Positions 40,161 to 61,289 of a stretch of 64,000 bases of DNA are shown here, piece by piece. The stretch's first letter is position 1. Every line of letters starts with the position of its first letter. The notes beneath the pieces are model-generated. The model saw nothing but the letters and a program-made list of their open reading frames with translations. It made no database searches and was not told the DNA's origin. A program made the translations under genes and the position numbers. This stretch comes from Methylacidiphilales bacterium (lineage in GTDB: Bacteria > Verrucomicrobiota > Verrucomicrobiia > Methylacidiphilales > UBA1321). The stretch is from positions 62,001 to 126,000 of the forward strand of contig JAJSLK010000061.1 of assembly GCA_021272165.1 (NCBI GenBank), read 5' to 3'.

Positions 40161-41567
40161 TTGAGTCTTGTGGCCAGTATAGGACTCCACCAAAACTTCT
40201 CGCTCGGGCAGACCCTTTCGCCTCAGATGCAGCAGTCGCTGCAATTTTTGCAGGCGGCGGCGATGGAACTGCAATCACTGGTACAGCAGGAGATCGAGAT
40301 CAATCCGGTTTTGGAAGAAGCGGCGGAGGAGAGCAAGCCGGAGGCTGACACGGAAGACTGGGACAAGCAGTTGGAAGAACTGCGCCAAAAAGACGAGGAG
40401 TGGAAAGAGTATTTCTCCCAAAGCAATACCACGGCGACGAGCTATAACCCGGAGGCGGCGGAGCGCCGGCAATTTCTTTTTGATTCGCAAGTGGAGGCGC
40501 CGCACCTCTCGGATCATCTGGAGCGGCAACTGACGCTTTCGACGAGCAATCCGGAGATGATCCGAGTGGGTGAAGAGATCATTGGCAATCTGGATGAGGC
40601 GGGATTTTTGAAGATTCCGCTGATGGAAGTGGCGCAGTCTGCGCAGGTGGAATATGCGGTGGCGCAGAAGACGCTGGAGCGGATCCAGACGTTCGACCCG
40701 GTGGGGGTTGCGGCGCGGGATTTGCGGGAATGCCTGCTAATCCAGATCAACCGGCTCGGCAAGAGCGGGGAACTGGAGGCGGTGATCGTCGGGCAATACC
40801 TGGCCGAACTGGGGCGCAAGAAATACCAGGAGATCGCGCGCGCGCTGAAGGTGCCGCTGGAACGGGTGCAGGCGGCGGCGCAATTCATCGCGACGCTGCA
40901 GCCGCGACCGGGATCGAGCTTCAGTTCCGACGACAAGCAGAACGTGGTGCAGGCGGAGCTGGCGGTGCACAAGGTGGGCGACGATTGGGTCGTGGTGATG
41001 AACGATGATCCGGTGCCCCGGCTGCGGATCAGCGACACCTACAAGGACCTATTGGTGAACAACGGCCACGACGCCGGGCTGCGGGAATATTTGAAGGAGA
41101 AAATCCGGGCGGGGAAATTCCTGATCAAGTGCCTGCATCAGCGCCAGCAAACGATTTTCAACATCGCGACGGAAATTGTGAAACGGCAGCGGGCCTTTTT
41201 TGACCAGGGCGTGGCGCACCTGAAGCCGCTGACGATGAACCAGGTGGCCGAGGTGGTGGGCGTGCACGAGACGACGGTGAGCCGGGCGATCGCGAACAAG
41301 TATGTGCAGACCCCCTACGGGCTCTTTGACCTGAAATATTTTTTCACGCCCGGTTACCAGACGGCCACCGGCGAGGTGATGTCGAACACGAGCGTGAAGG
41401 ACGCGATCCAGGAACTGATCGCGCGCGAAAGCGGCTCGCATCCGCTGTCGGACCAGGAGATCGTGAAGATCCTGGGCGAGCGGGGAATTCCACTGGCCCG
41501 CCGGACGGTGGCGAAGTATCGCTCGGAGCTGGGACTGCTGCCGTCGAACCTGCGCCGCAGCATCTAG
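40161..41567 (+). CDS. rpoN: RNA polymerase sigma-54 factor
   Basis: 468 residues from a TTG (a GTG at 40170 is an alternative). It directs RNA polymerase to -24/-12 promoters that need enhancer-binding ATPases. Region I is Gln-rich (LGQTLSPQMQQSLQFLQAAAMELQSLVQQEIEINPVLEE), an acidic spacer follows, then the core-binding and HTH regions, and the RpoN box ARRTVAKYRSELGLLPS at the C terminus. Length is normal. The start codon is weakly supported, as no good RBS is seen. Confidence 0.95.
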   Translation: MSLVASIGLHQNFSLGQTLSPQMQQSLQFLQAAAMELQSLVQQEIEINPVLEEAAEESKPEADTEDWDKQLEELRQKDEEWKEYFSQSNTTATSYNPEAAERRQFLFDSQVEAPHLSDHLERQLTLSTSNPEMIRVGEEIIGNLDEAGFLKIPLMEVAQSAQVEYAVAQKTLERIQTFDPVGVAARDLRECLLIQINRLGKSGELEAVIVGQYLAELGRKKYQEIARALKVPLERVQAAAQFIATLQPRPGSSFSSDDKQNVVQAELAVHKVGDDWVVVMNDDPVPRLRISDTYKDLLVNNGHDAGLREYLKEKIRAGKFLIKCLHQRQQTIFNIATEIVKRQRAFFDQGVAHLKPLTMNQVAEVVGVHETTVSRAIANKYVQTPYGLFDLKYFFTPGYQTATGEVMSNTSVKDAIQELIARESGSHPLSDQEIVKILGERGIPLARRTVAKYRSELGLLPSNLRRSI

Positions 41568-41747: not shown

Positions 41748-41778
41748 CTGATCCCTCGACAAGCCCAGGATGACAGAA
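41748..41778 (+). repeat. Repeat C copy 1 (overlaps terminase start)
   Basis: The copy carries TCGACAAGCCCAGGATGACA. It matches copies at 41873, 46490 and 50316 and is the same kind of imperfect palindrome (TCCTTCGAC with GCTCAGGA). The terminase ATG at 41770 falls inside it. Confidence 0.7.
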
Positions 41779-44127
41779 CTTTTATTTTATACGAAATGGA
41801 GTTTGGGAGCGAGACAGGCATTGAGGGAAGTGTTCCGCCGACGAGGACATCGGCGGCTACCCAAAAGGCAGGCTGAACTGATCCTTCGACAAGCTCAGGA
41901 TGACGGAACAAAAAAGGCGATCCGCCGCGTCTCCCGGCGCCTTGCCCGAGCTCGTCGCAACGCAGAACCTCCGCAGATCGATTCATTCGCGGAATTTTTG
42001 ACCCGGCATGCGCGGGTGAAGAGCGGATCGGGTTACGCGCCCTATCATTTTGCGGGACGCGAGGCATTGCGGCCCATTGTGGAACAGATCGACCGGATAC
42101 TGGCCTCGGGCGAACCGGACGCATCGCTGGCGCTTTGCGGCGGGGCGCAGTTCGGCAAAACGGTGCTGATGCTGAATCTGCTGGCTTACCTGGTGGCCGT
42201 TCGGTTTCGCAATGTGGGCTACTACCTGCCCGACGACGATCTCGTCTCCGGCCTGGTCGACGGCAAGCTGCGGCCCGATGTGCTGGACCAGGTGCAGTGG
42301 CTGGCGCGGCTGATCGCGGTGGGCAAGACACTGTCGCCGACGGGCCGGGCGGTGAACCGGAAGGGAGCGTTCCTTTGCACGGACGGCGTGCGGACGGCGC
42401 TGGCCTTCATGCGCGGGCTGGGAAAAATCCCGACGTCGTTTTCGATGGACGTGGTGATCCAGTACGAGAAGGACGACCTGCCGGAGGAGCACGCGCGGTT
42501 TTTGTCGGGCCGGATGACAGCCTCGAACCTGCGGCTGACGCTGATCATCGGGACGCAGCGTTATCACGGCGCGGGGCAGAACCTGGCCTTCACGGAAGGG
42601 ACGCAGCATATCGGACTGGTGACCTGCACGGGTTGCGGACGGAAGCTCAATCCCGAAACGGAATGGCCGGGCATTTGCCGGCTGGTAATGCCGGACGCGC
42701 CAATGAGCGAGTGGCCGCGGCTGACGGTGGAGGGAAGTTTTGAACGCGGAACGAAGAATTCAGCTCCTGGAGCGGAACCGGAATCGGCGCAATTCCGCAT
42801 TCCCTTCGCGCCGGGGCAGAAGTTTATGCTGGCGTGTCCGGACTGCGGCGGAGCGCTGGACCGTTCTCATCCCGAGTGGCACGCCCAGGCGCCGGAACGG
42901 GAGGCACAGCGCCGCTGGAGTTACCGGATTTCGCAGCTGCTCATGCCGGCGATTGACCTGGAGCAGATTGTGGCGGCATGGCAACTGGCGATCCGCGATC
43001 CAGCGCAGATGACGGTGTTTTGCACGGACCGGCTGGCCTTGCCGAAGTCTCTGACCCAGACGCTGACGCCGCATGATCTGCAGGCGGCGCAAGGGGATTA
43101 TTCCCTGGCCATGGGCAGAATCACGGAATTACCAAATTTCTCGGAATTAACGGAAAGGCGGAAGAAAAATGATCCTAATGGAGCCTTCCTTAAAAATTCT
43201 GTTCATTTGGTAAATTCCGTTAATTCCGTCAGGCTTCCTTTTGTTTCCTACGGAGGATTGGATCTCGGCGACCAGTGCTGGTTTGTGGCGCGGGCGGTGG
43301 AGGCGAAGGCGCCGCATGAGGTGCGTTTGTTGTGGATCGAGGCGATTGCGGCGGAGCGGGTGCGGTCGCGGGTGCCGGAGCTGTTCCGTGAGTTGGATCT
43401 GCGGGCGCTGTGCGTCGATGCCGGCCCACTGCGGGATCTGGCGCGCGATTTGGCTTTTCTGCTGAACGGCCTGGATGAGGTATGCGAACCGACGTCGACT
43501 GATCCGGCGCGGAATATTTATTTTAATCGCAGGTCGCCGGGAGTTCCGCCGATGGGGACATCGGCGGCTACCCATGAGACAAGGCTCGCGGAGACGACAT
43601 TGCACTGGCAGGCGGCAGCAGAGAAATGGCGGAACGTGCGGTGCGCGCCCGTGGAGTTTACGCAGCGGGAGGGGCAGGGCCTGCGGCACAAGGTGGCGCG
43701 GACGCAGGAGGGACGGATTTATCCGCTGCTGGCGGCGCATCGCGACGAAACCATTGGCCGTGTCATTTCGGAATTGCTTGCTCCCGATGCGACGCATCCC
43801 CGCCTGACGGAGAACGCGGACGGAACGGCGTGGATGATTTCGGGGCCGCGGTTCCGGTTGCCGAGGCCGACGGAGCAATCGCGGGCGGTGCTGGAGCTCT
43901 ACGAACGGCATTTGCTGGCGGGTTCGCGACAGGAGCGGAGCGGCGACGGCAAGACGCTGCGCTACCTCGACCATTGCGAAAATCATTTTCTTCTTGCGAC
44001 GGCCTATGCGGCGCTGGCCGAGCTGGTGACGCCGTCGGTCGCGGGAACAATTTCGACGACGACTGCTTTTCGAGCGTTGCCCGCGCCGCGTTCTCATGTG
44101 CGGCGGGAACGGAGCATGGCGGGATGA
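41770..44127 (+). CDS. Phage terminase large subunit (GpA-like)
   Basis: 785 residues. It packages DNA into the procapsid. The ATPase domain has Walker A GGAQFGKTVLML (about residue 125). The Walker B region reads DVVIQYEKDDLPE; the Asp before Glu that GpA-type terminases normally have is Tyr here. A Cys-rich zinc segment follows (TCTGCGRKLN, CPDCGG). The nuclease-like domain begins at GGLDLGDQCWF and has VDAGPLRDL. Three repeat insertions alter it: the first ~55 residues derive from repeats C and A, a palindromic D pair lies at about 451-488, and an A copy is near 593-600. The N terminus is therefore doubtful. No small terminase subunit is recognisable upstream. Confidence 0.85.
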   Translation: MTELLFYTKWSLGARQALREVFRRRGHRRLPKRQAELILRQAQDDGTKKAIRRVSRRLARARRNAEPPQIDSFAEFLTRHARVKSGSGYAPYHFAGREALRPIVEQIDRILASGEPDASLALCGGAQFGKTVLMLNLLAYLVAVRFRNVGYYLPDDDLVSGLVDGKLRPDVLDQVQWLARLIAVGKTLSPTGRAVNRKGAFLCTDGVRTALAFMRGLGKIPTSFSMDVVIQYEKDDLPEEHARFLSGRMTASNLRLTLIIGTQRYHGAGQNLAFTEGTQHIGLVTCTGCGRKLNPETEWPGICRLVMPDAPMSEWPRLTVEGSFERGTKNSAPGAEPESAQFRIPFAPGQKFMLACPDCGGALDRSHPEWHAQAPEREAQRRWSYRISQLLMPAIDLEQIVAAWQLAIRDPAQMTVFCTDRLALPKSLTQTLTPHDLQAAQGDYSLAMGRITELPNFSELTERRKKNDPNGAFLKNSVHLVNSVNSVRLPFVSYGGLDLGDQCWFVARAVEAKAPHEVRLLWIEAIAAERVRSRVPELFRELDLRALCVDAGPLRDLARDLAFLLNGLDEVCEPTSTDPARNIYFNRRSPGVPPMGTSAATHETRLAETTLHWQAAAEKWRNVRCAPVEFTQREGQGLRHKVARTQEGRIYPLLAAHRDETIGRVISELLAPDATHPRLTENADGTAWMISGPRFRLPRPTEQSRAVLELYERHLLAGSRQERSGDGKTLRYLDHCENHFLLATAYAALAELVTPSVAGTISTTTAFRALPAPRSHVRRERSMAG
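41835..41856 (+). repeat. Repeat A copy 1 inside the terminase
   Basis: Arms CCGCCGACG and CATCGGCGG around AGGA, with one mismatch. It is read in frame as RRRGHRR. It lies within the terminase N-terminal extension. Confidence 0.7.
41873..41908 (+). repeat. Repeat C copy 2 inside the terminase
   Basis: Contains CCTTCGACAAGCTCAGGATG, a widespread type of interspersed bacterial repeat. It is translated as LILRQAQDDGT in the terminase frame. Confidence 0.7.
43122..43232. repeat. Repeat D, inverted pair inside the terminase
   Basis: Left arm 43122-43157 (CACGGAATTACCAAATTT... then CGGAATTAACGGAA) and right arm 43194-43232 in opposite orientation (TTTGGTAAATTCCGTTAATT) form a large imperfect hairpin around about 36 bases. 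The whole unit is in frame with the terminase and adds roughly 37 residues between the ATPase and nuclease parts. Confidence 0.75.
43546..43567 (+). repeat. Repeat A copy 2 inside the terminase
   Basis: A perfect 9-bp hairpin: arms CCGCCGATG and CATCGGCGG around GGGA, a GNRA-type loop. It continues as CTACCC. It is in frame as VPPMGTSAATH of the terminase. Confidence 0.8.
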
Positions 44128-44204: not shown

Positions 44205-45464
44205 ATGAAACCATCGACTTATCTAAAAAATCTTCAGCTCTCCACAAACTGGCGGGCGCAATACAATCCGCTGCGGGGCCTGACCATCGCGCAACTGGTG
44301 GCGATGCTGGAGGCCGGCGAGCGGGGCAATTATGCGCGGCTGCAATGGCTCTACCGTTTTGTGGAGAAGCGGAACGCGACGCTGCGGGCGGTGTTGCAGC
44401 GGCGGCGGGCGGCGTTGACGCGGCTCGACTGGGACATCCGGTTTCGCGAGGCGGCGCCGCAAGGGCGCGGATCGAGGACGCTGGCGGCGCGGCAAGCGAC
44501 GGTGCTGCGGGAGGCATACGAGCGGATCGGCAACCTGCGCGAGGCGGTGAGTTTCCTGGCGCTGGCAGAGTTTCGCGGATACGCGCACCTGGAGCGGCAT
44601 CTGGACGCGCAGGGCCGGACGATCCGGTTGCAGCCGGTGCCGCAGTGGTTCTGGGCGCGGTTGGGGCCGGAGGCGCCCTGGCAGTACAACGCGCAGGCGC
44701 GTCCCGGGCTGCCGATGCCGGGTGATCCGGTGCTGGACCCGGAGCGGTTCATCGTGCGCGAGAGCGCCGCGCCGATCGACGAGGTGGCGGTGATCGCGCA
44801 TGTGCGGCAGAGCCTGAGCCAGAAGGATTGGGACGGCTTCGTGGAGACGTACGGGTTGCCGCCTCTGTTCCTGGAATTGCCGCCGGACATTCCGGCGGAG
44901 AAGGAGGCCGAGTACCAGGCCCAGGCGGAGGCGATCATCGGCGACGCGCGCGGGACGGTGCCGCACGGGACGCGGATTCACACGGTCGATTCGGGCGCGC
45001 GCGGGCAGAATCCGTTCGCGGAGCATTAGCGTTACCAGGACGAGATGATCGTGCTGGCGGCGACGGGCGGAAAGCTGACGACGCTGGCCGAGCCGGGAAC
45101 GGGAACGCTGGCGGGTTCGGCACACCAGCGGGCGTTCGACGATCTTACGGAGTCGGAGGCGGCGCTGATCTCGGAGATTTTCCAGGAGCAATTGGATCGT
45201 CCGCTGCTGGCCCGGCATTTTCCGGGTCAGGCGCAACTGGCCTATTTCGAGATGTCGATGACGCGGTCGCTGGACGCGGCCGATGTGATCGACCAGGCGC
45301 TGAAGCTGGCGCGGGCGGGATACGAGATCGACCCGGCGGAGCTTTCGGAGAAGACGGGTTACCGGCTGCGGTTGCGGAATTATGCGCTGACGCCGATTCC
45401 CCGCGCGCCGATGCCGGAACCGGAAACGGCGGATGAGCCGGAGCCGGTGGAACAGGAGATTTGA
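44205..45464 (+). CDS. Phage portal protein (DUF935/Mu gp29-like), interrupted by an in-frame amber codon
   Basis: The reading frame is continuous from ATG 44205 to 45464, 419 codons, except for TAG at 45027-45029 (codon 275). The 5' part (274 residues) has the gp29 opening LTIAQLVAMLEAGERGNYARLQWLYRFVEKRNATLRAVL and RFIVRESAAPIDE. The part after the stop resumes without a shift as RYQDEMIVLAATGGKLTTLAEPGTGTLAG, which is ordinary portal sequence, and ends in a Pro/Glu-rich tail. Either this is a nonsense mutation or sequencing error, or the codon is read through or recoded. An ATG at 45045 could start a separate 139-residue product. Confidence 0.8.
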
Positions 45465-45467: not shown

Positions 45468-46484
45468 TTGAGCGAAAGACTTTTTATCATGAACGAAACA
45501 ACTTCCTTTGCCCCGGCGCCGGACGGCTGGTTTCACATCGCGCCGCACGGCACTTTTCCGCACCCGACAGGTGCGCTGCAGGTGATCGACGCGGAGGCGT
45601 GCGAGGCGATGCTGGCGACGTTTCGGGAGGAATCGCGGCAGCCGAATTTTCCCGGACTGCTGGTCGATTTCGACCATGCGTCGCACGATCCGGCGCGACC
45701 CACGACAGCGGCGGGCTGGATCGGCGCGCTGGAGCATCGCGGTGACGGGCTTTACGCGCAGATCCGCTGGTCGGACCTGGGGCAGCAGGCGTTGACGGGC
45801 GGCCGTTACCGGCTGGCGTCGCCGGTGTGGAACCGGGCCGATTGCGATCAGTGGATGGCGGCCGGTTCTGATGGCCGCGAGGTCGCGCATTTGCGTCCGC
45901 GGCGGCTGGACCGGCTGGCGCTGACAAACGATCCGAACCTGCCAGGGCTGGCACCGCTGTCGAATCGCTTAATCCATTCAGCGGCGGTCGAGGACCGTCG
46001 CCCTTTAGTCAACGAAACCTATTCACCCATGAATCTACGAAACGAAATTCTTCAACATTTACAATTGCCCGCGTCGACGACGGATGCCGAGATCGCGGAG
46101 GCGATACGGCATCAGGCGTCCGAGCTGGAATCGTTGCGCAATCGCTGCCAGCGGCTGGCGGAGGTGCAGGCGGAGAACGACCTGGAGCGCTTTGCCGAGG
46201 TCATTACGAATCGCGATGTGGTGCGCGCGCAGTTGCTGGCGAACCGCGAGGCGACACTGGCGTTGCTGAACGCGCTGCGCCATCCGGAGCCGGCAGCGCC
46301 GTTGCATCAGCCGCATTTGTATCGGCCGAATCTTCACCTGCTGAGTCCGCTGGCGCCGGAACCGCAGTCGGCGGCAGCCCGGAAAATTGCGAATCGCGCG
46401 CGGCAGTTGCAGAGCCAACTGAAGATCGGACATCACGCAGCGTTCCGCATGGCGGAGGGCGAGGCGGAGACGGAGGTGGCCTAA
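45468..46484 (+). CDS. Phage protease/scaffold (Mu gpI-like)
   Basis: 338 residues. The start TTG at 45468 has GGAG 9 bases upstream; an ATG at 45489 is the alternative. Residues about 20-165 resemble the Mu gpI prohead protease (LLVDFDHASHDPARPTTAAGWIGALE, GLYAQIRWSDLGQQALTGGRYRLASPV). A repeat B copy (45982-46002) is then read in frame, and from residue 188 (MNLRNEILQHL) a helical, coiled-coil-like region follows, typical of a scaffold. The ATG at 46029 could start the scaffold alone, as in Mu I/Z. Confidence 0.8.
   Translation: MSERLFIMNETTSFAPAPDGWFHIAPHGTFPHPTGALQVIDAEACEAMLATFREESRQPNFPGLLVDFDHASHDPARPTTAAGWIGALEHRGDGLYAQIRWSDLGQQALTGGRYRLASPVWNRADCDQWMAAGSDGREVAHLRPRRLDRLALTNDPNLPGLAPLSNRLIHSAAVEDRRPLVNETYSPMNLRNEILQHLQLPASTTDAEIAEAIRHQASELESLRNRCQRLAEVQAENDLERFAEVITNRDVVRAQLLANREATLALLNALRHPEPAAPLHQPHLYRPNLHLLSPLAPEPQSAAARKIANRARQLQSQLKIGHHAAFRMAEGEAETEVA
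45982..46002 (-). repeat. Repeat B copy, inverted orientation
   Basis: Arms GCGGCGGTC and GACCGTCGC around GAG, the reverse of the copies that precede start codons. It lies in frame inside the protease/scaffold gene, 26 bases before the internal ATG at 46029. Confidence 0.7.
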
Positions 46485-46561: not shown

Positions 46562-46990
46562 ATGAGTCAATCCAATACCCATCAAGGTGACATCCTGGTC
46601 ACTGCGAACGAGGATCTCTCCGCCCTGGCGGATGTGCTCGTCGTTCCGTACAACAATTCGGGCTCGCTGGTCGTGACACGGCCGGCGGCAAACAACGATT
46701 ATGCCGTCTACGTGCTGGTTTACGGCGCGACGCCCGGCGGCAAGGCGACGGTGCGTCCGCTGAATCCGGACTGGACGGTGCGGGTGGTCGCGAAGGGAGC
46801 GGGCAATCCGGGCGATCTGCTGGTGCTGGCGGACGGCGTGACAACGGCGGCGGACAAAGGGAAGGTGCGGTCGAAGGCAACATTAACGGTCGGTTCCGGG
46901 ACATATCGGCTGGTGGGGATCGCCGAGGAGGCGTTTGTCGACAGCCAACTGGTGCGGATGCGGCCGACATTCGGGACGGTGACGGTTTAA
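46562..46990 (+). CDS. Putative capsid cement/decoration protein
   Basis: 142 residues. Beta-rich and Gly/Ala/Val-rich (GDILVTANEDLSALADVLVV, VLADGVTTAADKGKV, YRLVGIAEEAF), with the layout of DUF2190-like cement proteins that stabilise phage heads. The position between protease/scaffold and major capsid agrees. The call depends on context and composition. Confidence 0.6.
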   Translation: MSQSNTHQGDILVTANEDLSALADVLVVPYNNSGSLVVTRPAANNDYAVYVLVYGATPGGKATVRPLNPDWTVRVVAKGAGNPGDLLVLADGVTTAADKGKVRSKATLTVGSGTYRLVGIAEEAFVDSQLVRMRPTFGTVTV

Positions 46991-47068: not shown

Positions 47069-48001
47069 ATGCCTAGTTTATCCGAAATTACTTCCAGCCC
47101 AATGCTGCGGGAATTCGCCCAGGGCGCGGCCCAGTCGGCTGTGCAGCCGGTGGCCGATTTTCTCGCGCCGACGGTCGAGGTGCCGACGAGCATCGGCCGC
47201 TACAAAATTTACACGGAAAAAAACCGGTTCCTGCCGCCCGACACGTTGCGGGCCATCGGCGGGCGGGCAACCGTGCTGAGCTTTGACGCGACTGACGCGA
47301 CTTACAACTGTCAGCCGAACGCGCTGGACTTCCCGATCGATTATCTGGAACAGATCGAGGAGGCCGCGCTGACGAACGCGCTGATGGAGGGCGCGACGAT
47401 CGTGGCCGAGGTGGCGGCGCTGACGCACGAGCAGAACGTGATCAACACAGCGCTAAGCGCGACGACGTCGGGCGCGCTGAGCAAGACGTGGTCGGGTTCG
47501 AGCGGGAGCGATCCGATCGACGACATCGACCAGCAGATCCTGAGCGTGATCAAGGCGGCGCGGTACGGTTCGCTGATGGGCGTGGGCGTGCTGTTCGGCG
47601 CCGGGGCCTGGCGGCTGTTCAAGAACGCGCCGAACGTGCGGGGCCGCTTCGTGGCGGCGGGTGATTATGCGATTCCGAACGTGACGCCGGCGGAGGCGAC
47701 GAAGCTTTTCGTGGGCAATCCCGAGGTGCGGACGTCGTACATGGTGGTGGACACGGCGAAGGAAGGGCTGGCGCCGAGCATCAGCTTCCTGCTCGATACG
47801 TCGGTGCTGATCTTTGCGCGGCTGCAGAATCCAACGCGGCGCGATCCGTCGTTCATGAAGACATTCCGGTTGATGGGCAACTACATGGTGCCGGGCTCGT
47901 ACGTGCGCGATGACGGGCGCGTCGAGGTGGCGAAGTTCGACTGGAGTGAGGCGATTGCAATTACCAACAGCTCCGCCGCGCAACTGCTCACCGTTTCCTA
48001 A
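47069..48001 (+). CDS. Phage major capsid protein
   Basis: 310 residues from ATG 47069 (MPSLSEITSSPMLREFAQG). Features of a Mu-T/major-capsid-like shell protein: an extended N-terminal arm, PTVEVPTSIGRYKIYTEKNRFLPPDTLRAIGG, NALDFPIDYLEQIEEAALTNALMEGATIVAEVAAL, and VVDTAKEGLAPSISFLLDTSVLIFAR near the C terminus. Position after protease/scaffold and cement genes supports it. No cleavage site is visible by eye. Confidence 0.8.
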   Translation: MPSLSEITSSPMLREFAQGAAQSAVQPVADFLAPTVEVPTSIGRYKIYTEKNRFLPPDTLRAIGGRATVLSFDATDATYNCQPNALDFPIDYLEQIEEAALTNALMEGATIVAEVAALTHEQNVINTALSATTSGALSKTWSGSSGSDPIDDIDQQILSVIKAARYGSLMGVGVLFGAGAWRLFKNAPNVRGRFVAAGDYAIPNVTPAEATKLFVGNPEVRTSYMVVDTAKEGLAPSISFLLDTSVLIFARLQNPTRRDPSFMKTFRLMGNYMVPGSYVRDDGRVEVAKFDWSEAIAITNSSAAQLLTVS

Positions 48002-48064: not shown

Positions 48065-48508
48065 ATGGCATGGATAACTCCAAGTGAGAGCGATGTGCTG
48101 ACAGTGCTGTCCGAGACGGAGCTGGCGACGTATCGCGCCGCGGCGACCGCAAGCGGCCAGGCCGATCCCGTGGCGCCGACGCTGGCGCAGGTAATCGACC
48201 TGGTGCGTGGTTACGTGGGCGCATACAAGCCGAACACGCTCGGGCTGCCGGGAACAATTCCGCAGAAATTGCTGGCTCCGGCGCTGGACCTGGTGGCGGT
48301 GCGGCTGCCGCAGCGGGTGGGTGTGCCGCCGAAGGACGTGCGGCAGATGGCGGCGAGCCGAGCGGTGCGGCTGCTGGAGCAGGTGGCGGCGGGTATTTTC
48401 AACATCGAGGAGCCCGACTCCCCGACGCTGGAAACGACGTCGGCGCCGAGCCCGAGCATCGTGGCGCGGCATCGTCACTTTACCCCGCGCAGTGAGGAGG
48501 GGGTCTAA
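48065..48508 (+). CDS. Putative head-tail connector (DUF1320-like)
   Basis: 147 residues. The opening WITPSESDVLTVLSETELATYR, followed by VIDLVRGYVGAYKPNTLG and DVRQMAASRAVRLLEQ, resembles DUF1320/gp36-type connectors of Mu-like phages. It directly follows the capsid gene and is preceded by a good Shine-Dalgarno (CAGGAGAG). Its stop is 1 base before the next start. Confidence 0.6.
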   Translation: MAWITPSESDVLTVLSETELATYRAAATASGQADPVAPTLAQVIDLVRGYVGAYKPNTLGLPGTIPQKLLAPALDLVAVRLPQRVGVPPKDVRQMAASRAVRLLEQVAAGIFNIEEPDSPTLETTSAPSPSIVARHRHFTPRSEEGV

Positions 48509-48509
48509 G

Positions 48510-49190
48510 ATGCCGAGCGTCCTGACTTCGATCCAACAGGAAATCGCGGACCGGCTGCTGGCCGATCCGTTCTTCGCGACGATTCCGGTGTTGGTGGAGA
48601 ATCCGCGCGATGTGACCTATGAGCTGGAAGCCAGCGTTTCGGCGGCGGGGACGTGGGCGGAGGTGCTGGTGCCGGAGGCAGTGGTGAGCGCATCGACCGC
48701 GCCAGGGCCGATCTTCGACCCGGTGGAGATTGCGATCCGGGTGCGGGAGAATATTCCGGTGGCATCGGGACCGCACGCGCTGGAGGTGGCGGAGACAGCG
48801 CTGGCGCTGCTGCATCTCTACCGGCAGACAACAATCAACGAGGTGTTGAGCGCGGCGCCGAAGGCGTTGGGGCGGATCAATGAGCCGAACGTGGTGGCGT
48901 ATGAGGCGCGGGTGCGGACGCAGGCGGGCGCAAGTTACGCGGTGCCGCAGCTTGACGCGCCAACGATCAGCAGCGCCGGTTCGGTCTCGCCGCAGACGGT
49001 GACGCTGGCGTCGGACCAGCCGGGCGCGGCGATTTACTACACGCTGGATGGTTCACAGCCGGCGCCACGGTCGCCGACGTCGGTGCTTTATACGGCGCCG
49101 TTCACGGTGAGCGCGGCGGCACAGTTGCGGACGCGGGTGTGGCTGGCGGGTTTCATGGCGAGCTCGGAGGCGCGGGCGAGCTTCAGCTGA
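48510..49190 (+). CDS. Tail completion-like protein with a CHB_HEX_C domain
   Basis: 226 residues from ATG 48510. The N-terminal 150 residues (LTSIQQEIADRLLADPFFATIPVLVENP, LEVAETALALLHLYRQTT) look like a tail terminator/completion protein. From about residue 150 comes PTISSAGSVSPQTVTLASDQ then AAIYYTLDGSQPAP and SVLYTAPFTVS, the pattern of the chitobiase/beta-hexosaminidase C-terminal beta domain, sometimes found on phage and wall-binding proteins. Its neighbours are head and tail genes. Confidence 0.65.
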   Translation: MPSVLTSIQQEIADRLLADPFFATIPVLVENPRDVTYELEASVSAAGTWAEVLVPEAVVSASTAPGPIFDPVEIAIRVRENIPVASGPHALEVAETALALLHLYRQTTINEVLSAAPKALGRINEPNVVAYEARVRTQAGASYAVPQLDAPTISSAGSVSPQTVTLASDQPGAAIYYTLDGSQPAPRSPTSVLYTAPFTVSAAAQLRTRVWLAGFMASSEARASFS

Positions 49191-49196
49191 ACTGCA

Positions 49197-49235
49197 TGAC
49201 GGAATTACCAAATTTGACGGAATGAACGGAATTTT
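49197..49235 (+). repeat. Repeat D copy
   Basis: GACGGAATTACCAAATTTG then ACGGAATGAACGGAATTTTT just after the tail-completion gene; same core as at 43122 and 50929. Confidence 0.7.
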
Positions 49236-49294
49236 TAATGAGTCGCTAACGCGACAGGATGACACCGCCGTCCGGCGTGCGGTACCAAAAGATA

Positions 49295-49319
49295 CGGCGG
49301 TCCCAGACCGCCCCCTACA
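49295..49319 (+). repeat. Repeat B copy ahead of the tail-tube gene
   Basis: GGCGGTC and GACCGCC arms around CCA, then CCCCTACA ending at 49319. The start codon follows 10 bases later. The intervening leader has no GGAG-type site. Confidence 0.65.
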
Positions 49320-49329
49320 GAAAACATAG

Positions 49330-50265
49330 ATGCCGATCACACGAACGACTTTATTAAGCGGGCCGGCGGCAGCGACGTTCAACGGACACACATTTTTTGC
49401 TCGAGACGGAATTCTCGCGACGCCGGCCCTGGAGCTGGACGAGGTGGAGTCAGATGCGAACGGGTGGCTGGATGAGACGGTGGCGGAAGCGCCGGTGACG
49501 ATCCGGTTTACACCGTCGGCGCCGTTCGCCGATTTGATCGCGCTTTATCCATGGCTGGAGGGCGCGGCGGGGACGGCGTTGTTCGGAACGAGCGATGTGC
49601 CGTTAGTTTTGGTGGCGGCGAACGGGGTACGGCTGACATTTGCGGCGGCGGCAATCATCGAGATGCCGGAGCTGAAGTTGTCGGACCGGGGAACCGTGGC
49701 GGGAACGGTGACCTTCCTGGCGATTGGGGCGAGGGCGCAGGCGGTGACGGCGGCGAATCGTTTTGTGGCCATTGATATCGCAACACCGCCAACTCCGCCG
49801 GCGGGTACGCCGCAACTGACGGATGATTTTGCGATTACCTGGAGCGATTCGCCGTGGGCGAGCCTGAGATCGCTGGAGGGCATAACGGTAAAATTTGCAA
49901 TGAAGACCAGGCCGGTGTGGTCGGATGCGAATGCGCTGCTGGACGTGACGCTGGAGAAACTAGCGGTGGAGGCGCGATTCACTCCGGCTTCGCCGGGCGG
50001 CCCGGCCGAATCGGACCTGGTCGCGGCGCTGCAGCTTCAAGGCGCGAACGCGCTGCCGGGGAGATCGCTGGCGGCGACGGCAAGCACCCTGGACATCGCG
50101 GGAGAGCATCTCTGGGTGCGGTTGCCGCAGGCGCAATTGGTTCGGGGAGAGATGGCGTTTGATGCGACGCAGCCGCGGATAGGTGAACTGGTTTTTATGG
50201 CGGAACGGGCATGGATGAACTCGGGTGCAGAGGCTCTGGCGTTGTTAACGGAGGGGATGCCATGA
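49330..50265 (+). CDS. Putative tail tube protein
   Basis: 311 residues, beta-rich (GHTFFARDGILATPALELDEVESDANGWL, LRLTFAAAAIIEMPELKLSDRGTVAGTVTFLAIG). Its position after the connector and completion genes suggests the tail tube. The sequence is not a recognised family by eye. The start at 49330 is not preceded by a Shine-Dalgarno but by repeat B. Confidence 0.55.
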   Translation: MPITRTTLLSGPAAATFNGHTFFARDGILATPALELDEVESDANGWLDETVAEAPVTIRFTPSAPFADLIALYPWLEGAAGTALFGTSDVPLVLVAANGVRLTFAAAAIIEMPELKLSDRGTVAGTVTFLAIGARAQAVTAANRFVAIDIATPPTPPAGTPQLTDDFAITWSDSPWASLRSLEGITVKFAMKTRPVWSDANALLDVTLEKLAVEARFTPASPGGPAESDLVAALQLQGANALPGRSLAATASTLDIAGEHLWVRLPQAQLVRGEMAFDATQPRIGELVFMAERAWMNSGAEALALLTEGMP

Positions 50266-50315
50266 AAGCGGGTAGCGGCTTCGTGTGCCCTTCAACAAAT
50301 TGCTTCGGACTATCT

Positions 50316-50349
50316 GAACTGATCCTTCGACAAGCTCAGGATGACTGAA
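50316..50349 (+). repeat. Repeat C copy 4
   Basis: ATCCTTCGACAAGCTCAGG then ATGACTGA between the tube gene and the 50366 gene, matching copies 1-3. Confidence 0.7.
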
Positions 50350-50365
50350 TTTTGAAATAAGATTT

Positions 50366-50917
50366 ATGCGAATTTCTTTAAATAATATCTGGCTGACGAA
50401 TGACGGATCGGCGGCATTGCAGACATGGACGGACGCGCACGATGTGCGGTTGAACGGGCGTCAGATGGTGCAGGACGCGGAGTTTCTGCGGGCGGTGGCG
50501 GCCCAGCCACTGGCCCGGGGGAACCTGGTGAATCTTCTGCAGTTCACGGTGACACGGCAGCACGCGAGCGTGGCGGCGGCGGCGGCGTTTTTGCTGACAG
50601 CGTTCGGATCGCTCCCGACGAGCGGGCAGGCGACGATTGTTTGCGGTGCCTATGGGGAGTCGACGCTGACCTGCACATTTTCGGCGGTGCTGGAGGCGAT
50701 GCCGGAGAGTGTTTTTCACGGGACGCGGACGGATACGACGTTCGTGTTGCGCGGAGGTACGATCACGTCGCTGTCGCCCCTGGTGGAGAGCGCGGTGGAC
50801 GGGGCCTCATTTCAGATCGGTTACGGTGCGCCGCAGGGCGGGACGCTGGATGGCGGCAATCTGGCGGATGCGCTGGCTCCGAGCACGCTGGACCTCGATG
50901 GAGGGGCGTTTTCGTGA
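50366..50917 (+). CDS. Phage structural protein, unassigned
   Basis: 183 residues, mixed alpha/beta (RISLNNIWLTNDGSAALQTW, QFTVTRQHASVAAAAAFLL, STLTCTFSAVLEAMPESVFHG). It lies between tube and Mtd_N-like genes. A tail assembly role is inferred from position only. No tape-measure-like length or coiled coil is present. Confidence 0.55.
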   Translation: MRISLNNIWLTNDGSAALQTWTDAHDVRLNGRQMVQDAEFLRAVAAQPLARGNLVNLLQFTVTRQHASVAAAAAFLLTAFGSLPTSGQATIVCGAYGESTLTCTFSAVLEAMPESVFHGTRTDTTFVLRGGTITSLSPLVESAVDGASFQIGYGAPQGGTLDGGNLADALAPSTLDLDGGAFS

Positions 50918-50928
50918 ATGAGGAAAAT

Positions 50929-50968
50929 CACGGAATTACCAAATTGATCGAAATTGACGGAATTATTT
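50929..50968 (+). repeat. Repeat D copy
   Basis: CACGGAATTACCAAATTGATC then GACGGAATTATTT directly after the 50366 gene, sharing the D core. Confidence 0.65.
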
Positions 50969-51028
50969 ATGAAGAGGGCGAACGACGGAGTTATGGGAGC
51001 AAGGAAAATATATCAGTCGGGCAAGTAA

Positions 51029-51054
51029 GCGACGGTCGTAGACCGCCGCTACAT
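51029..51054 (+). repeat. Repeat B copy ahead of the Mtd_N-like gene
   Basis: Arms GCGACGGTC and GACCGCCGC (eight of nine paired) around GTA, followed by TACAT. The next start codon is 11 bases after the CTACA. Confidence 0.75.
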
Positions 51055-51064
51055 CAAAAATTTT

Positions 51065-51469
51065 ATGGCTCAAAAAATTCAAATTCGGCGAGGGCTTGAG
51101 GCCCAGCGTTCCCTGATCACCCCGGACGTGGGGGAACCGCTTTTCACGACCGACAACAAGCAGCTTTTCATCGGCGACGGCGCGACGGCGGGCGGCCTTT
51201 TTGTCGGGGGCGGATCGCCGGTCGGTTATGTGCAGAAATTCCGGGGGACGAAGGCAATCGGAGCGGGGGCCGATTCGGTGGCGGTGACGGGGCTGGGCCT
51301 TCCCTCCGTGCCGGCGCAAGTGCTGGTGACGGTGCGGAAGGTGACGGGCGGGCTGAATCTTTTCGCGACCGTGCGGGATGATTCGATCACGACGGACGGC
51401 TTTACGGTTGATCTTTCGGCGGCGACGAACGCGGCGACGTACAAACTCGATTACCTGGTGATTCCATGA
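51065..51469 (+). CDS. Tail protein with Mtd_N-like N-terminal domain
   Basis: 134 residues. IQIRRGLEAQRSLITPDVGEPLFTTDNKQLFIGDGAT (residues 5-41) matches the N-terminal domain of major tropism determinant and related tail proteins, a small beta fold. The rest is short and beta-rich. Probably a minor tail or receptor-associated protein. It overlaps the start of the 718-residue gene by 4 bases (ATGA). Confidence 0.65.
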   Translation: MAQKIQIRRGLEAQRSLITPDVGEPLFTTDNKQLFIGDGATAGGLFVGGGSPVGYVQKFRGTKAIGAGADSVAVTGLGLPSVPAQVLVTVRKVTGGLNLFATVRDDSITTDGFTVDLSAATNAATYKLDYLVIP

Positions 51470-53622
51470 GTTCGGTGTGGACGATACGCGACGCCACGGG
51501 AGTTGAAAAAACGGCGGCGGAGTGGGGGCTGTGCGGCCTGACGCGGGAACGGATCAACCAGCGGCCGGACCTGGTGACGTTTCGCGCGGAGAACGGGGCG
51601 AGCGACGCGGACCCGATTTTCGCGCACGGCTCGACGATCCTGATTTTCCGCAACGGGACGCCCTGGTTTTACGGGCGGGTGATTGAGGTGCCGGGGCGGG
51701 CGTCGGCGAAGGCGGAGGAGCAGCTCTACCGCGTGGCGGGGCCGTGGTGGTACCTGGAGAACCTGGTTTTTCAGCAGGCGTGGCAGACGACGAACGGCGT
51801 GGATGTGACTCTGATTTCGACGAACAAGAGCCGGCTGATTCTGAATCAGAAGGGCGACGGGTCGAAGCTGGCAACGGGGGCGGCGATCCTGGAGGTGCTG
51901 AATTACGCGACGGCGCGCGGCGTGCCGATGACGATCGGCTCGGTGACGCCGAACGCGACCGCACCCTACGCGGAGGAGCTGGACCAGTCGTGTGCGGAGG
52001 TGATCCGGAATTTCCTGCGCTGGACGCCGGACGCAGCGGCGGCGTTCGACTACACGACGACGCCCTACCCGACGCTTTCGATTTTGCGCCGGGCGGACGC
52101 ATCGACGTTGATGTTGCCGGCTTACGGCGCGCCGGTGTCAAAGCTGGAGCTGACGCCGCGGCATGATTTGCAGGCGCCGTCGGTGGTGCTGAAGTTTGAG
52201 CAGACGAACGACATCGACAACGACACGTTCACGTCGCTGATTGTGCAGCCCGCGCCGTCGACGGCGACGGGTGACGAGCTGGGAGCGATGGTCATGACGC
52301 TTGATTTAGCGGGGGCGCGGGAGACGTACCAGAAGCAGAAGGTGCGGACGGCATTCATCCCGCCCGATTCATCATCGGCGGGGGTGGTGGACTGGTGGAA
52401 GGGAAAATTTCCGTGGCTGAGCGACTTTGACGATACGGACCTGACGGTGGTGGCGGGATCGCATACGGTGACAATGGAGGACCCGGCCGATTATCCGGGG
52501 CTGACGCTGTCGAATGTGCCGAATGAATTGCTGGAGGGGTCGGTGGCGGCTTGGATGAATCTTTACGCGGCGCCGCTGCGGGTGCAGGCGACGATGCAGT
52601 ATACGGGCGCGGCGACGGATGAGTCGACGGAGGTATTTGGGCCGACAAACCAGCGGGTGTTGTACACGCGGGTGATCGGGACAAACGCGGAGACGCAGAC
52701 CTACAGCCGGCTGACATCGGAGACGGCGGCGGAGCCGGTACCGGCCGGGCTGGCGCAGGCGCTTTACGATGCGGTGTCGGTATTGCCGTACGACGGGACA
52801 ATCGAGTTGACGGAGGAGGAGTGCTCGGGTGTGGGTGCGCCGGGAAATCTTCTGAACCTGACGGGAGGGCGGGCGGAGTGGTCGACGATGGCGGCGCAAA
52901 TCCAGCGGATCGAGGAGCAGATCGATGCGGGGATCACGCGGCTGACAGTGGGGCCGGGAAAACATCTCGGTCACGGCGACCTGGCGGAGCTGTTGCGGGT
53001 GAACAGGCAGCGGCGTCCTTCGTGGCGATTGAATGAACGGACGAGCGGAAACGCAGGCGATCACGCGACGAAGGTGCAGGGCGGGGAGCAGTCGCCGCGC
53101 TCCGATTCGATTTTCCGACCATCGGCGGGAAGCACGGAGACGAACAAGCCGTTTGAACTGCTGGATGCGTCGGATGCGACGGGGCTGAAAGTGGTGGTGA
53201 ATGCGAATTCGTTTTTGCAAAAATCGCTGACGCCGAACGATACGGTGGCGGTCACGGGTCTGGGCGCGGCGATCGCGGTGACGGTGGGGTCGCTGATCTG
53301 GCTGGAGCTTGATTTTACGTCGTACGCGGTGACAAGTGCGGCGATTGGATCGGGGACGTCGGGCTGGAGCGGTTTTCCGAATCCGTTCGTCTACACGGGG
53401 ACATCGCCGAACCAGGTGATGACGACGGCCTACCTGCTGATCGGTTACCTGGCGGCGGCGAGTTCGACGCTGGACGGGACGGTGATCACGGGTGGGAGTC
53501 CAAGCTCGCCGGTGAGCGCGAAGATTATCCAGTGCGTGTCGCAAAACCTGCTGTTGCGGAACGGCTGCTTCAACGGGCTGCCGGCGATTTTTCCGTTCCC
53601 ACATCACGCTCCTTACGTATGA
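51466..53622 (+). CDS. Large tail protein, baseplate hub-like
   Basis: 718 residues. The start SSVWTIRDATGVEKTAAEWGLCGL, LYRVAGPWWYLENLVFQQAW and ITVGPGKHLGHGDLAELLRVNRQRRPSWR suggest a siphophage-type tail protein with an attached beta-sandwich region. I could not place it in a family; the size, position and ATGA overlap suggest a baseplate hub or central tail protein. It contains no long coiled coil, so it is not an obvious tape measure. Confidence 0.6.
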   Translation: MSSVWTIRDATGVEKTAAEWGLCGLTRERINQRPDLVTFRAENGASDADPIFAHGSTILIFRNGTPWFYGRVIEVPGRASAKAEEQLYRVAGPWWYLENLVFQQAWQTTNGVDVTLISTNKSRLILNQKGDGSKLATGAAILEVLNYATARGVPMTIGSVTPNATAPYAEELDQSCAEVIRNFLRWTPDAAAAFDYTTTPYPTLSILRRADASTLMLPAYGAPVSKLELTPRHDLQAPSVVLKFEQTNDIDNDTFTSLIVQPAPSTATGDELGAMVMTLDLAGARETYQKQKVRTAFIPPDSSSAGVVDWWKGKFPWLSDFDDTDLTVVAGSHTVTMEDPADYPGLTLSNVPNELLEGSVAAWMNLYAAPLRVQATMQYTGAATDESTEVFGPTNQRVLYTRVIGTNAETQTYSRLTSETAAEPVPAGLAQALYDAVSVLPYDGTIELTEEECSGVGAPGNLLNLTGGRAEWSTMAAQIQRIEEQIDAGITRLTVGPGKHLGHGDLAELLRVNRQRRPSWRLNERTSGNAGDHATKVQGGEQSPRSDSIFRPSAGSTETNKPFELLDASDATGLKVVVNANSFLQKSLTPNDTVAVTGLGAAIAVTVGSLIWLELDFTSYAVTSAAIGSGTSGWSGFPNPFVYTGTSPNQVMTTAYLLIGYLAAASSTLDGTVITGGSPSSPVSAKIIQCVSQNLLLRNGCFNGLPAIFPFPHHAPYV

Positions 53623-54335
53623 ACCTTGATTATTTTGAGACGTCGTTTTTTCCCTTTAGCGTGCCGGAGAAGGATTCGTCCTTTGCCAGCAGCGTGGGGG
53701 CGCAGACGGTTTACCCGGCGGGGTTCAGTCTCGATCAGGCGCTGCAAATTTATTGGCGGGCGAAGGATTACCTGCTGGTGGCGTCGGGGAACGGGACGCT
53801 GGGCGGGTTGAGCCAGTCGCTGAACGTGAACGGATTGTTGCCGCCGCGAAATGCCGTGGTGGGGCACAATTCGTACTCGCTGCTGACGGGCTTTGCGCCG
53901 ACGGGGCCGTGGGACCTGGTTTGTGGCCGAGGCGTGCAGCAGGTGGCGCCGGGCTCGGGGACGATCACGGCGAGCGGGTCGGCGGGTTCAGGGTCGAATC
54001 CGGCGGCGCTGTTCAACCTGCAGGTGAATTTGTTTTTCCCGGCGTATCTGGTGCCTGATCCGGTGGTGAAATATGACGGGCTCTGGTGGCCGGCGATGAG
54101 CATCTCGTGCTCGGTAACGAACACGGTGGAGCTTGATTCGGGCGGCGAGCTGGAGATGTCTTTCGACTGCACGACGCTGCCTGATCCGGAGAGCACGACG
54201 GAGATCAGCGCGTTTTCATTCTTCGGCGTTTCGGTGCCGGTTTTTTGCATGCCGCTGGCCCCGGCGAGCGGACCCGATCCCGCGGAGACGCGGACGTTTT
54301 CGGGGTCGTTGACGGTGGCCGATGAATGGTCGTGA
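53619..54335 (+). CDS. Tail or baseplate protein, unassigned
   Basis: 238 residues from ATG 53619 (MNLDYFETSFFPFSVPEKDSS), overlapping the preceding stop (ATGA). Beta-rich with Gly/Ser loops (GTITASGSAGSGSNPAALFNLQVN). Position suggests a minor tail protein. No family recognised. Confidence 0.55.
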   Translation: MNLDYFETSFFPFSVPEKDSSFASSVGAQTVYPAGFSLDQALQIYWRAKDYLLVASGNGTLGGLSQSLNVNGLLPPRNAVVGHNSYSLLTGFAPTGPWDLVCGRGVQQVAPGSGTITASGSAGSGSNPAALFNLQVNLFFPAYLVPDPVVKYDGLWWPAMSISCSVTNTVELDSGGELEMSFDCTTLPDPESTTEISAFSFFGVSVPVFCMPLAPASGPDPAETRTFSGSLTVADEWS

Positions 54336-54399
54336 ACCGGGCTGGTCCCGGTCGAACGGATCCATTCTGAAATTTTAACCTCAATTTTTTTTAACTGAA

Positions 54400-56496
54400 A
54401 TGATTCCATCTTTTTCCTCTTCTTTACGGCATCGCGGGATGACGGTGGCGGGGATTCTCAGTGTGGCGCTGACGTCGGTGCTGCTGCTTTGCGGCGCCGG
54501 GTCGGTGCCGATCGAGAATTTTCTGCCGCAGGGTCCGATGCAGGGCGATCTCAATGCCGGTGGTTACAACATCACGAACGCGGCAACGGTCTGTGCCACG
54601 AATTTTGCGGGCAACGGCGCGGCTTTGACGAATCTGAACGCCAATGCCTGCGTGCCGTTGCCGCTCAAGACAAACCTGAATGCGAGCGATGTGGTGATCG
54701 TGATCGGGGAAAGCCTGGCGGCGGGCTCGAACGTCAATACCGAGGACCCGACGCATCACAATGCGGTGAGTTATGCCGGGCCAGGCAAGTGCTGGGCGCA
54801 ATGGTTGTCGCAGTTTCTGCCGAACATTCCGGTTTATAGCTATGGCGTGGGTGGCGCGGACAGCAGCAATGGCCTGGGCGTGCTGGCGGGGACGTCGGGT
54901 TTTTATGGCGCGACGAAATATGTGAACGGGTCCGTGGTGGGGAGCTATAGCGGCATTTCCTCGCTGCCGGGCGCTCTGATTCCGTCGTCGGGTTCCGGCG
55001 GGACGGCTTACTTCATCAATACATACGATGGAAATAATGACAACGCGGATGGACGGAACGCGGCGACCTTTGCAACGAACATGGCGGCGATCTTTGCCGC
55101 CGAGCGGGCGCTGGCAAGCAACGTGAAGATTTGCGCGGTGACGAGCCAGTTTGTGAACAACCGGACGCCGGGGACGATAGATCCCTATAATTCATGGACG
55201 CGGTCGCAACTGGGACAGACGGGCGGCTTCGACATCCTGATCGATGTGACGCCGACTTTCACGAATCCCTACGATACGAATTTTTATGATGCGGATCACG
55301 CGCACCTGGTGTCGGCGGGTTGCTACGCTTACGCGGAGGACGTGAGGAACGCGCTGCTGGGCAATCCTTCACCGGTGAACCTGACAAGCCTTTTCATTCC
55401 GCAGGCCGGAACGGGAACGGCCGGGTTCACCTGGACGGGGCCGCTGACTTATAACAATCAGACATTTCTGGATACCTACAACGGCGACACGTTGTTCGAG
55501 TTGCAGAGCACGACTCCTTCAACCGGGCATTATTATACGTTTCAATCGAGCCATCTTGGGCAATTGGCGGTTTATCGCGATAGCATGGGATTCACGGGGC
55601 TGCTCTGGGACATCAACGGCAATCAGACTTACGTGGTGCCGAACAGCGGCAATTTCACGATCAATTCCGCCGGTAATGGTCAGTTGAATTTCGTGCTGGG
55701 CAACAGCGTCCACAATTGGACGAGCGCCGTGGACACGAGCGGCAACTGGAATCTTTATCGGGACAGCATGGGGCTGACCGGCGTGGCGATCGCCGCCGGG
55801 GGCAATCAAACTTACACCGTACCTGATTCGGGATCGTTCACGATCAATCCGAAAAGCTCGGGGCAACTGAATTTCGTGTTGGGGAATACGGTGCACAATT
55901 ACACGACAGCGATTGATTCGAGCGGCAATTGGAATCTTTATCGCGAGGCGATGGGGCTGACGGCGGAGGTGCTTTCGGCTTCCGGCAATTTCACCTACAC
56001 GGTGCCGAATGGGGGAAGTTATACGATCAATGGAAATGGCAGCAGCGGACTAAGTTTTGTCCTGGGCAATACGGTCAACAATTACACGATGCAGATCGAT
56101 CCCAGCGGCGGTTTTGATCTTTATCGCAATTCGCTCGGGTTCACGAACTTGGCCATCAGTCAGTCGGGGAACTGGACGGTGACGCTGCCCAGCGGAGGTC
56201 AGTTCAATGTCATGTCGGGAACGGTGGCGGCCGATACGGCCGGCTATGGATTCGCGACGAAGGAGGGCTCGAATGCGAAGCAGGGGACGGCGACATTGAC
56301 CGGCGGAACGGTGACGGTGAGCGACAGCGCCGTGACAGCGAACAGCCGGATTTTTCTGACCGTGCAATCGCCGGGCGGGACGGTGGGCGTGCCTTATGTG
56401 TCGGTGCGGACGGCGGGGACGTCATTCACGATCACAAGCACGAGCGGGTCCGACACGAGCACGGTGGCTTACGAACTTTTTGAACCGGCGCCATGA
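54400..56496 (+). CDS. Tail fibre with SGNH-hydrolase domain and internal repeats
   Basis: 698 residues. After a hydrophobic N-terminal segment and NGAALTNLNANA comes an SGNH/GDSL-type esterase domain: the nucleophile Ser105 in VIGESLAAG and the DxxH motif D299-x-x-H302 in DADHAHL. Residues about 395-605 contain four ~61-residue repeats (core LYRDSMGFTG, then an NxTYxVPxxGxFTIN end). The C-terminal part has a trimerising-like fibre sequence (TLTGGTVTVSDSAVTANSRIFLTV). Probably deacetylates a surface glycan during host attachment. The hydrolase role is inferred from motifs. Confidence 0.75.
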   Translation: MIPSFSSSLRHRGMTVAGILSVALTSVLLLCGAGSVPIENFLPQGPMQGDLNAGGYNITNAATVCATNFAGNGAALTNLNANACVPLPLKTNLNASDVVIVIGESLAAGSNVNTEDPTHHNAVSYAGPGKCWAQWLSQFLPNIPVYSYGVGGADSSNGLGVLAGTSGFYGATKYVNGSVVGSYSGISSLPGALIPSSGSGGTAYFINTYDGNNDNADGRNAATFATNMAAIFAAERALASNVKICAVTSQFVNNRTPGTIDPYNSWTRSQLGQTGGFDILIDVTPTFTNPYDTNFYDADHAHLVSAGCYAYAEDVRNALLGNPSPVNLTSLFIPQAGTGTAGFTWTGPLTYNNQTFLDTYNGDTLFELQSTTPSTGHYYTFQSSHLGQLAVYRDSMGFTGLLWDINGNQTYVVPNSGNFTINSAGNGQLNFVLGNSVHNWTSAVDTSGNWNLYRDSMGLTGVAIAAGGNQTYTVPDSGSFTINPKSSGQLNFVLGNTVHNYTTAIDSSGNWNLYREAMGLTAEVLSASGNFTYTVPNGGSYTINGNGSSGLSFVLGNTVNNYTMQIDPSGGFDLYRNSLGFTNLAISQSGNWTVTLPSGGQFNVMSGTVAADTAGYGFATKEGSNAKQGTATLTGGTVTVSDSAVTANSRIFLTVQSPGGTVGVPYVSVRTAGTSFTITSTSGSDTSTVAYELFEPAP

Positions 56497-56529
56497 AGGC
56501 GCCGGCCAACCCTTAACCATGGAAAAATC

Positions 56530-57066
56530 ATGAACATGAATCTTCTCTTTAAAATAAGCGGTCTCGGTCTGCTTTTGAGCCTGACGGCGTGCGGAACGAC
56601 GGCAACGGAAACCGGAAGCACAACGGCTTCCGCGACGGCCACGACGGCGGCGAGCATCGAATCGGCGCTGCCGTTGATCCGGACGGGGGCGGCGGTGGCG
56701 ACGGGAGCGGTCCTCGATTTCGCGGTGAATCAGCCAGGGACGCGGACGAGACTGGCGAATGAGATGTATGCGGCGGCGAGCGCCGTTTATTCGCTTTCGG
56801 GCGGATCGTTCCCGACTCCGGCGCAACTTCAGGCGAGCATTTTGGCGTTTGGGGGATCGCAGACGGACGCGAATTACGCGACGTTTTCGACGGCGGTTGC
56901 CGGGTTGTACGCCGCCTATTATCCGAAGCTGGCGACGGGGGACACGAAGACGGCGACGGATCTGCTGAACGCGATTGCAGGCGGGATCGAGGATGCGTCG
57001 GCGGCCTACGTGACGACGCCCGCGCTGGCGACGGCTTCATCAACGACGGCAACAACGAGCTTTTGA
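56530..57066 (+). CDS. Phage-associated lipoprotein
   Basis: 178 residues. Lipobox LTAC after MNMNLLFKISGLGLLLS gives a lipid-anchored Cys near residue 22. The rest is Ala/Thr-rich and helical (SIESALPLIRTGAAVATGAVLDFAVNQPG). No family. Its position just after the tail fibre and before the DPBB protein suggests a lysis or exclusion role. Confidence 0.6.
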   Translation: MNMNLLFKISGLGLLLSLTACGTTATETGSTTASATATTAASIESALPLIRTGAAVATGAVLDFAVNQPGTRTRLANEMYAAASAVYSLSGGSFPTPAQLQASILAFGGSQTDANYATFSTAVAGLYAAYYPKLATGDTKTATDLLNAIAGGIEDASAAYVTTPALATASSTTATTSF

Positions 57067-57070
57067 GGCA

Positions 57071-57520
57071 ATGAGCGAGATTGTTTCCCTGGGCTTGGGG
57101 AAGATGAGCATTTTTGGCGGCCCGGCCGACGAGGGGGTCGGGCCGCACGAGGGGCTGGCGCTGATCGGTCCGACGGACCTGGGCATCTGGTGGTTTTCGT
57201 GCCTGTTTCTGCCGGAACAGCCAGCGGGGACGACGGGCCTGGCGCGGCGGCTGAATCCGCGGGCGTTTTACCTGGCAATGCGGTGGGACTACACGCGGTG
57301 GCCGAAGGACCTGCTGCGGCACACGGTGGTGAAGCTGACGAATCCGGCGAATGGATTATGGGTGCTGGCGAGGCCGGTTGATTTCGGGCCGGGGGACGGT
57401 TCGGTGATCGACGGGCAGCCGACCAAGGACACGGGACGGATTGCGGATTTGTCGCCGGGTGCGGCTAATGCTTTGGGACTATGTACCGATGATAAGGTAG
57501 GGTGTGAATTATTAAAGTAG
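57071..57520 (+). CDS. Double-psi beta-barrel protein, possible cell-wall enzyme
   Basis: 149 residues. LPRHTVVKLTNPANGLWVLARPVDFGPGDGS and IADLSPGAANALGL (the LxNGxxxxAxVxDxGP ... DLSxxAAxxLG pattern) fit a double-psi beta-barrel, as in RlpA, lytic transglycosylases and endolysins. The Asp residues expected for catalysis are present (DFGPGD). It starts 4 bp after the lipoprotein gene. It is the only lysis-like gene in the cassette, and enzymatic activity is unproven. Confidence 0.55.
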   Translation: MSEIVSLGLGKMSIFGGPADEGVGPHEGLALIGPTDLGIWWFSCLFLPEQPAGTTGLARRLNPRAFYLAMRWDYTRWPKDLLRHTVVKLTNPANGLWVLARPVDFGPGDGSVIDGQPTKDTGRIADLSPGAANALGLCTDDKVGCELLK

Positions 57521-61212: not shown

Positions 61213-61240
61213 GGAAAAAACCGGCACGACGTTTGAGCTA

Positions 61241-61266: not shown

Positions 61267-61289
61267 TGTGGATCATGGGGGGAACCTCG

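Follow-up and report, generated by a model that had tools for sequence, protein, structure and literature searches.

An in-frame TAG in the portal gene of a Mu-type head-tail cluster in a Methylacidiphilales genome

Closest described systems and the genes of the cluster

The closest described counterparts of the portal studied here are those of Mu and JBD30 (PF06074; PDB 9khx/9knu and 8rka), which belong to the same family by both profile and fold. They also share its gene neighbours, with the large terminase gene terL placed before the portal gene and the genes for a Mu I-like protease and a head protein placed after it. However, their identity to this portal is about 20-27%, the portal gene here contains an internal stop, and no transposase or integrase was detected in the cluster. 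A second comparison is with RcGTA and other viriforms, which the cluster resembles in being a compact head-tail cluster, present in one copy per genome and flanked by housekeeping genes, that appears to co-diversify with its host at the depth resolvable here. It differs from them in its gene families and its phylum, in the interrupted portal gene and in the split of the cluster in this genome; its packaging and transfer of host DNA are putative.

Two other kinds of system share the stop itself. As in phage stop-codon recoding, by means of a suppressor tRNA or TAG reassignment, the reading frame continues past the TAG, but here the TAG is not conserved, a suppressor tRNA was not found and TAG serves as a normal stop. 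Defective prophages with a nonsense mutation likewise carry a structural gene with an in-frame stop, whereas the remainder of the present cluster shows no decay, and the cluster occurs throughout the genus and in its sister genus. The Mu-like genes of a Verrucomicrobia bin were interpreted in an earlier study as a degraded prophage (PMC6920513).

The window, which is the whole stretch of 64,000 nucleotides analysed, lies on contig C34 of this genome (G000), a 2.87-Mb draft of 88 contigs that is 88% complete with 2.5% contamination. The features of the cluster and its surroundings are listed in Table 1. The small gene between the protease and head protein genes had no family match in the profile searches, and its position suggests that the product is a head decoration protein. 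The order of most tail-side genes is conserved in the relatives, and family matches among them are few.

Table 1. Positions in the window of the cluster genes and the adjoining host genes.
Feature	Coordinates	Strand	Matches and remarks
rpoN (sigma-54)	40161..41567	+	PF04552 and PF04963; host gene adjoining terL; ends in TAG
Large terminase, terL	41770..44127	+	phrog_675, 6.7e-30; similarity to relatives from ~41965
Mu-type portal gene	44205..45464	+	274 + 144 codons, split by TAG; PF06074 on both sides
Possible restart ORF	45045..45464	+	ATG 15 bases past the TAG; 139 codons
Mu I-like head maturation protease/scaffold	45468..46484	+	PF10123, 1.7e-21; phrog_328, 9.2e-25
Small conserved gene between protease and head protein	46562..46990	+	75-86% identity in genus relatives
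Major head protein	47069..48001	+	phrog_1005, 4e-27; 92-95% identity in genus relatives
Head-tail adaptor-like protein	48065..48508	+	phrog_195, 6.1e-05; 78-88% identity in genus relatives
Tail-side genes	48504..57520	+	48504-49190, 49330, 50366, 51065, 51466 (718 aa), 53619, 54400, 56530, 57071
miaA, hflX, radC, lpxA	58841..62857	+	host genes 3' of the cluster; same in G002

The gene that follows the adaptor gene (48504-49190), which is conserved in the cluster, encodes a C-terminal chitobiase/hexosaminidase-type domain (PF13290, 4.8e-14) that is unusual beside head-tail genes. The 698-residue tail-side protein encoded at 54400-56496 has a K1-lyase C-terminal domain at its end (PF24146, 2e-27). 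Since it resembles its relatives at the N-terminal end alone, in the first ~80-280 residues, it looks like a fast-changing tailspike. A 555-codon ORF on the minus strand (44223-45890) is antisense to the portal and protease genes and partly open in relatives, and is probably a shadow of the high third-position G+C. Dispersed repeats of approximately 30 bp, of the GATCCTTCGACAAGCTCAGGATGAC and GCCGACGAGGACATCGGCGGCTACC types, occur at 46489-46523, 50314-50345, 43543-43574 and elsewhere; both types are present in the spacers of the cluster, and the GCCGACGAGGACATCGGCGGCTACC type is also found inside terL.

The portal gene in this genome and its relatives

The assembly contains a TAG at 45027..45029 on the plus strand, which is codon 275, in frame, of the portal gene that starts with the ATG at 44205 and ends with the TGA at 45462-45464. 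The initial annotation described this codon as an in-frame stop with portal sequence on either side and no shift between them, and the profile matches agree with that description. The whole frame aligns to positions 2-335 of the 336 positions of PF06074 with a score of 156.8 bits (cut-off 23.9), and the two parts pass the cut-off separately, the 274 residues before the TAG matching Portal_Mu over profile positions 2-223 (7.1e-23) and the 144 residues after it over positions 227-335 (6.1e-16). The two halves are thus separated by no frameshift and by almost no gap in the profile; what is missing is the uninterrupted single frame that is expected of a PF06074 portal. A whole-genome search of the draft identified one portal copy, with one internal TAG, and no second, intact copy. 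An artefact of a chance ORF was ruled out, as the relatives align through the codon at 74-86% identity.

The same portal is encoded by five of the seven other genomes in the genus (G001, G002, G003, G005 and G007; 74-85% identity), and four further homologues are located on IMG/VR contigs (78-86% identity). All nine genus-level relatives have a leucine at the TAG site, encoded by TTG in four and by CTG in four, with one read as protein alone, while all three sister-genus genomes have an isoleucine. None of these nine genus-level and three sister-genus relatives contains an internal stop in the aligned portal gene, and no TAG version of the portal was retrieved from IMG/VR with a degenerate DNA pattern demanding TAG at the site. 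The conservation of the stop that is expected of a recoded gene is thus not seen, with a sense codon in every relative read, and by these alignments the TAG is private to this genome among the relatives compared.

Another feature confined to this genome among those compared is a break of the cluster between terS and terL. In the relatives in which the region is assembled (G002, G003, G005 and G007), the genes ahead of terL are terS (so called for its position), a gene of ~100 codons and a gene for a 131-residue protein. In this genome, these three genes are on another contig (C59:16314-17676), where they adjoin the same host gene, for a protein of ~590 residues, as flanks the cluster of G003 and G005. 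The gene directly upstream of terL is rpoN here versus terS in the relatives. The split regions correspond to 41568-41961 in the window and C59:16031-16340, and the spacer at the split is rich in 30-bp repeats that are also found beside terS on C59. The rpoN gene keeps its usual upstream neighbours, and the sequence of the relatives past rpoN had no match in the DNA of this genome that was compared. A simple reciprocal exchange at the break was set aside, as the event is not reconstructable from the rpoN neighbourhood. The split is either a real rearrangement or an assembly join at the repeats.

Origin and effect of the TAG

We consider it most probable, at about 60%, that the TAG arose very recently as a nonsense mutation, confined to this lineage, and that it halts particle assembly. 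One substitution in a leucine codon, which four relatives have as TTG, would have produced the TAG. Ribosomes would then halt at codon 275, and release factor 1 (RF1) would free a fragment of 274 residues. In an AlphaFold2 model of the intact homologue in G007 (mean pLDDT 71), for which a Foldseek search ranks the JBD30 and Mu portals first, the residue equivalent to the TAG (residue 272) is placed within a helix (267-283) that is followed by a loop (284-301) and a 34-residue core helix (302-335), both located after the cut site. The model predicts that the truncated product would lack this tunnel loop together with the long core helix and all C-terminal parts, and from the architecture of portals we infer that such a fragment has no activity. 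Provided that the cells do carry the TAG, as this reading presumes, no portal ring would be formed, and DNA packaging and particle production would probably be lost. The cell would tolerate this because the cluster would be a host-inherited element, similar to a gene transfer agent, and not a selfish phage.

A recent mutation is in line with the separation of terS and its two neighbours from terL in this genome only, and with the draft genomes G004 and G006, in which neither the head protein nor the 718-residue tail-side protein was found, so that losses do happen among members of the genus. Points against it are that the TAG is a single base in a draft genome in which every other compared gene of the cluster is intact, and that the terS/terL split may be an assembly join at the 30-bp repeats.

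If the mutation is real, the sequence suggests that it is young. The protein branch lengths of this genome are 0.11 for the part of the portal before the TAG and 0.10 for the part after it, within ranges of 0.05-0.25 and 0.03-0.43, respectively, for the other members of the genus. Mean pairwise dN/dS is 0.155 for this genome versus 0.124 among the others. The terminal dN/dS after the TAG, obtained as a three-point estimate, is ~0.27-0.30 versus 0.14-0.16, and this excess corresponds to ~14% of the terminal branch having evolved free of constraint (95% interval, 1-34%). Raised values occur in further genes of this genome, however, and synonymous sites approach saturation. We take this weak excess of replacements past the TAG as no more than a hint, and its presence in further genes counts against the mutation. 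Overall, the sequence past the TAG bears little or no sign of decay. Long-standing decay was rejected, as the constraint on both halves of the portal is near that in the relatives, and all other cluster genes compared with the relatives are open and constrained.

The main rival, less probable than the mutation, is a consensus error or a mixture of strains in the draft assembly, in which case the TAG would reflect an incorrect or minority base call and the portal gene would be intact in the living population. The event concerns a single base while all neighbouring genes are intact, the constraint past the TAG is nearly normal, the draft is fragmented, incomplete and slightly contaminated to the extent given above, and the terS/terL split at repeats may itself be a misjoin. 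However, in ~37 kb of DNA from this genome that aligns at 55% or more to proteins of the relatives, no stop other than the TAG interrupts a gene; the remaining flagged stops are at the ends of genes, ahead of start codons or in shadow frames, and the error rate is therefore not visibly high. Furthermore, the genome has one portal copy, so an alternative allele was not assembled.

It is very improbable that the portal is instead made as two chains that assemble together, with translation restarting at the ATG at 45045. This codon opens the restart frame listed in Table 1 and has an AGGA a few bases ahead of it, but several relatives have Gln, Val, Leu or Cys in place of the methionine, which argues that it is not a kept start. 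In addition, the cut interrupts a core helix of the portal in the G007 model, and no two-chain portal was encountered in this analysis.

As for the reading of TAG in this genome, it ends genes whose C-termini match the ends of their relatives, such as rpoN (41565-41567) and the gene at 38628, and the genome encodes RF1 (prfA). None of the 35 tRNAs recovered from the draft, all found with Rfam models and read by ARAGORN, has a CUA anticodon, in a set that is incomplete and contains no Gln/Asn gene. TAG is an ordinary stop in this genome, and reassignment of the codon was rejected on the grounds of its use at the ends of rpoN and other genes and the presence of RF1. The stretch of 100 bases from the TAG has a somewhat stronger fold than shuffled sequences (z -2.4), but the folding is modest and is matched by homologous segments with a sense codon (-35 to -53 kcal/mol), and a stimulatory RNA structure was accordingly rejected. 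Programmed readthrough or recoding of the UAG as a means of setting the amount of portal made is the least probable explanation, with hardly any weight left to it: the frame does run on past the TAG and is largely constrained, and a suppressor could sit in unassembled DNA, but the conserved signal is absent from the relatives and the codon terminates conserved genes.

Of the options of decay, error and recoding that were put forward in the initial annotation, the first two fit, decay at its earliest stage, while recoding is unlikely. The checks proposed there gave a sense codon in all relatives read and no amber suppressor among the recovered tRNAs, and the clear decay in other genes that it mentioned was not seen in the cluster genes compared, where the single further anomaly is the placement of terS and two neighbours on C59.

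The cluster as a candidate gene transfer agent

The stop codon itself would be an ordinary lesion, and its value is as a marker of the wider cluster, which is more interesting than the stop. The cluster is present in six of the eight members of the genus and in all three genomes of the sister genus, each of which has a single portal of this type. Where assembled, its borders are formed by the housekeeping genes miaA-hflX, msbA or gatAB, with borders in common between G000 and G002 and between G000, G003 and G005. No integrase or replication gene was found among the genes scanned, part of which could be identified. The sister genus and G001 split first in both the tree of the cluster and the tree of the host (RpoB, RpoN and HflX), and the remaining branches form a poorly resolved star in both. 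The G+C content is 0.62 for the cluster versus 0.60 for the host.

We compared these features with published criteria for gene transfer agents, or viriforms (PMC9662315). Proteins derived from tailed phages are represented by the matches to the terminase, portal, protease, head protein and adaptor. Full residence in the host genome, often over several loci, may be reflected in the housekeeping borders and, for this genome, in the additional locus on C59. The same criteria ask for vertical inheritance, with trees that match that of the host, and for particles too small to hold the cluster that carry mainly random host DNA into other cells. As far as can be judged from its genes, the cluster would fit some of the criteria, and without an obvious phage-like means of spread it is a candidate gene transfer agent. 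No such element in Verrucomicrobiota was described in the literature searched. The cluster resembles an undescribed gene transfer agent of this phylum that is possibly being lost here. More specifically, we tentatively suggest, as a possibility somewhat short of even odds, a vertically inherited and undescribed lineage of gene transfer agents with a Mu-type head in the genus and its sister genus, which this genome would be losing through the portal stop and the detachment of terS from terL. Most of the genus keeps the cluster under purifying selection, and one member has newly disabled it, provided that the TAG is real; such natural loss lineages would help to show whether particle-making pays.

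Related elements are also seen elsewhere in the genus. G006 encodes a different Mu-type portal, and G001 contains a second head protein (on C214) with 41% identity, which points to other related prophages in the genus.
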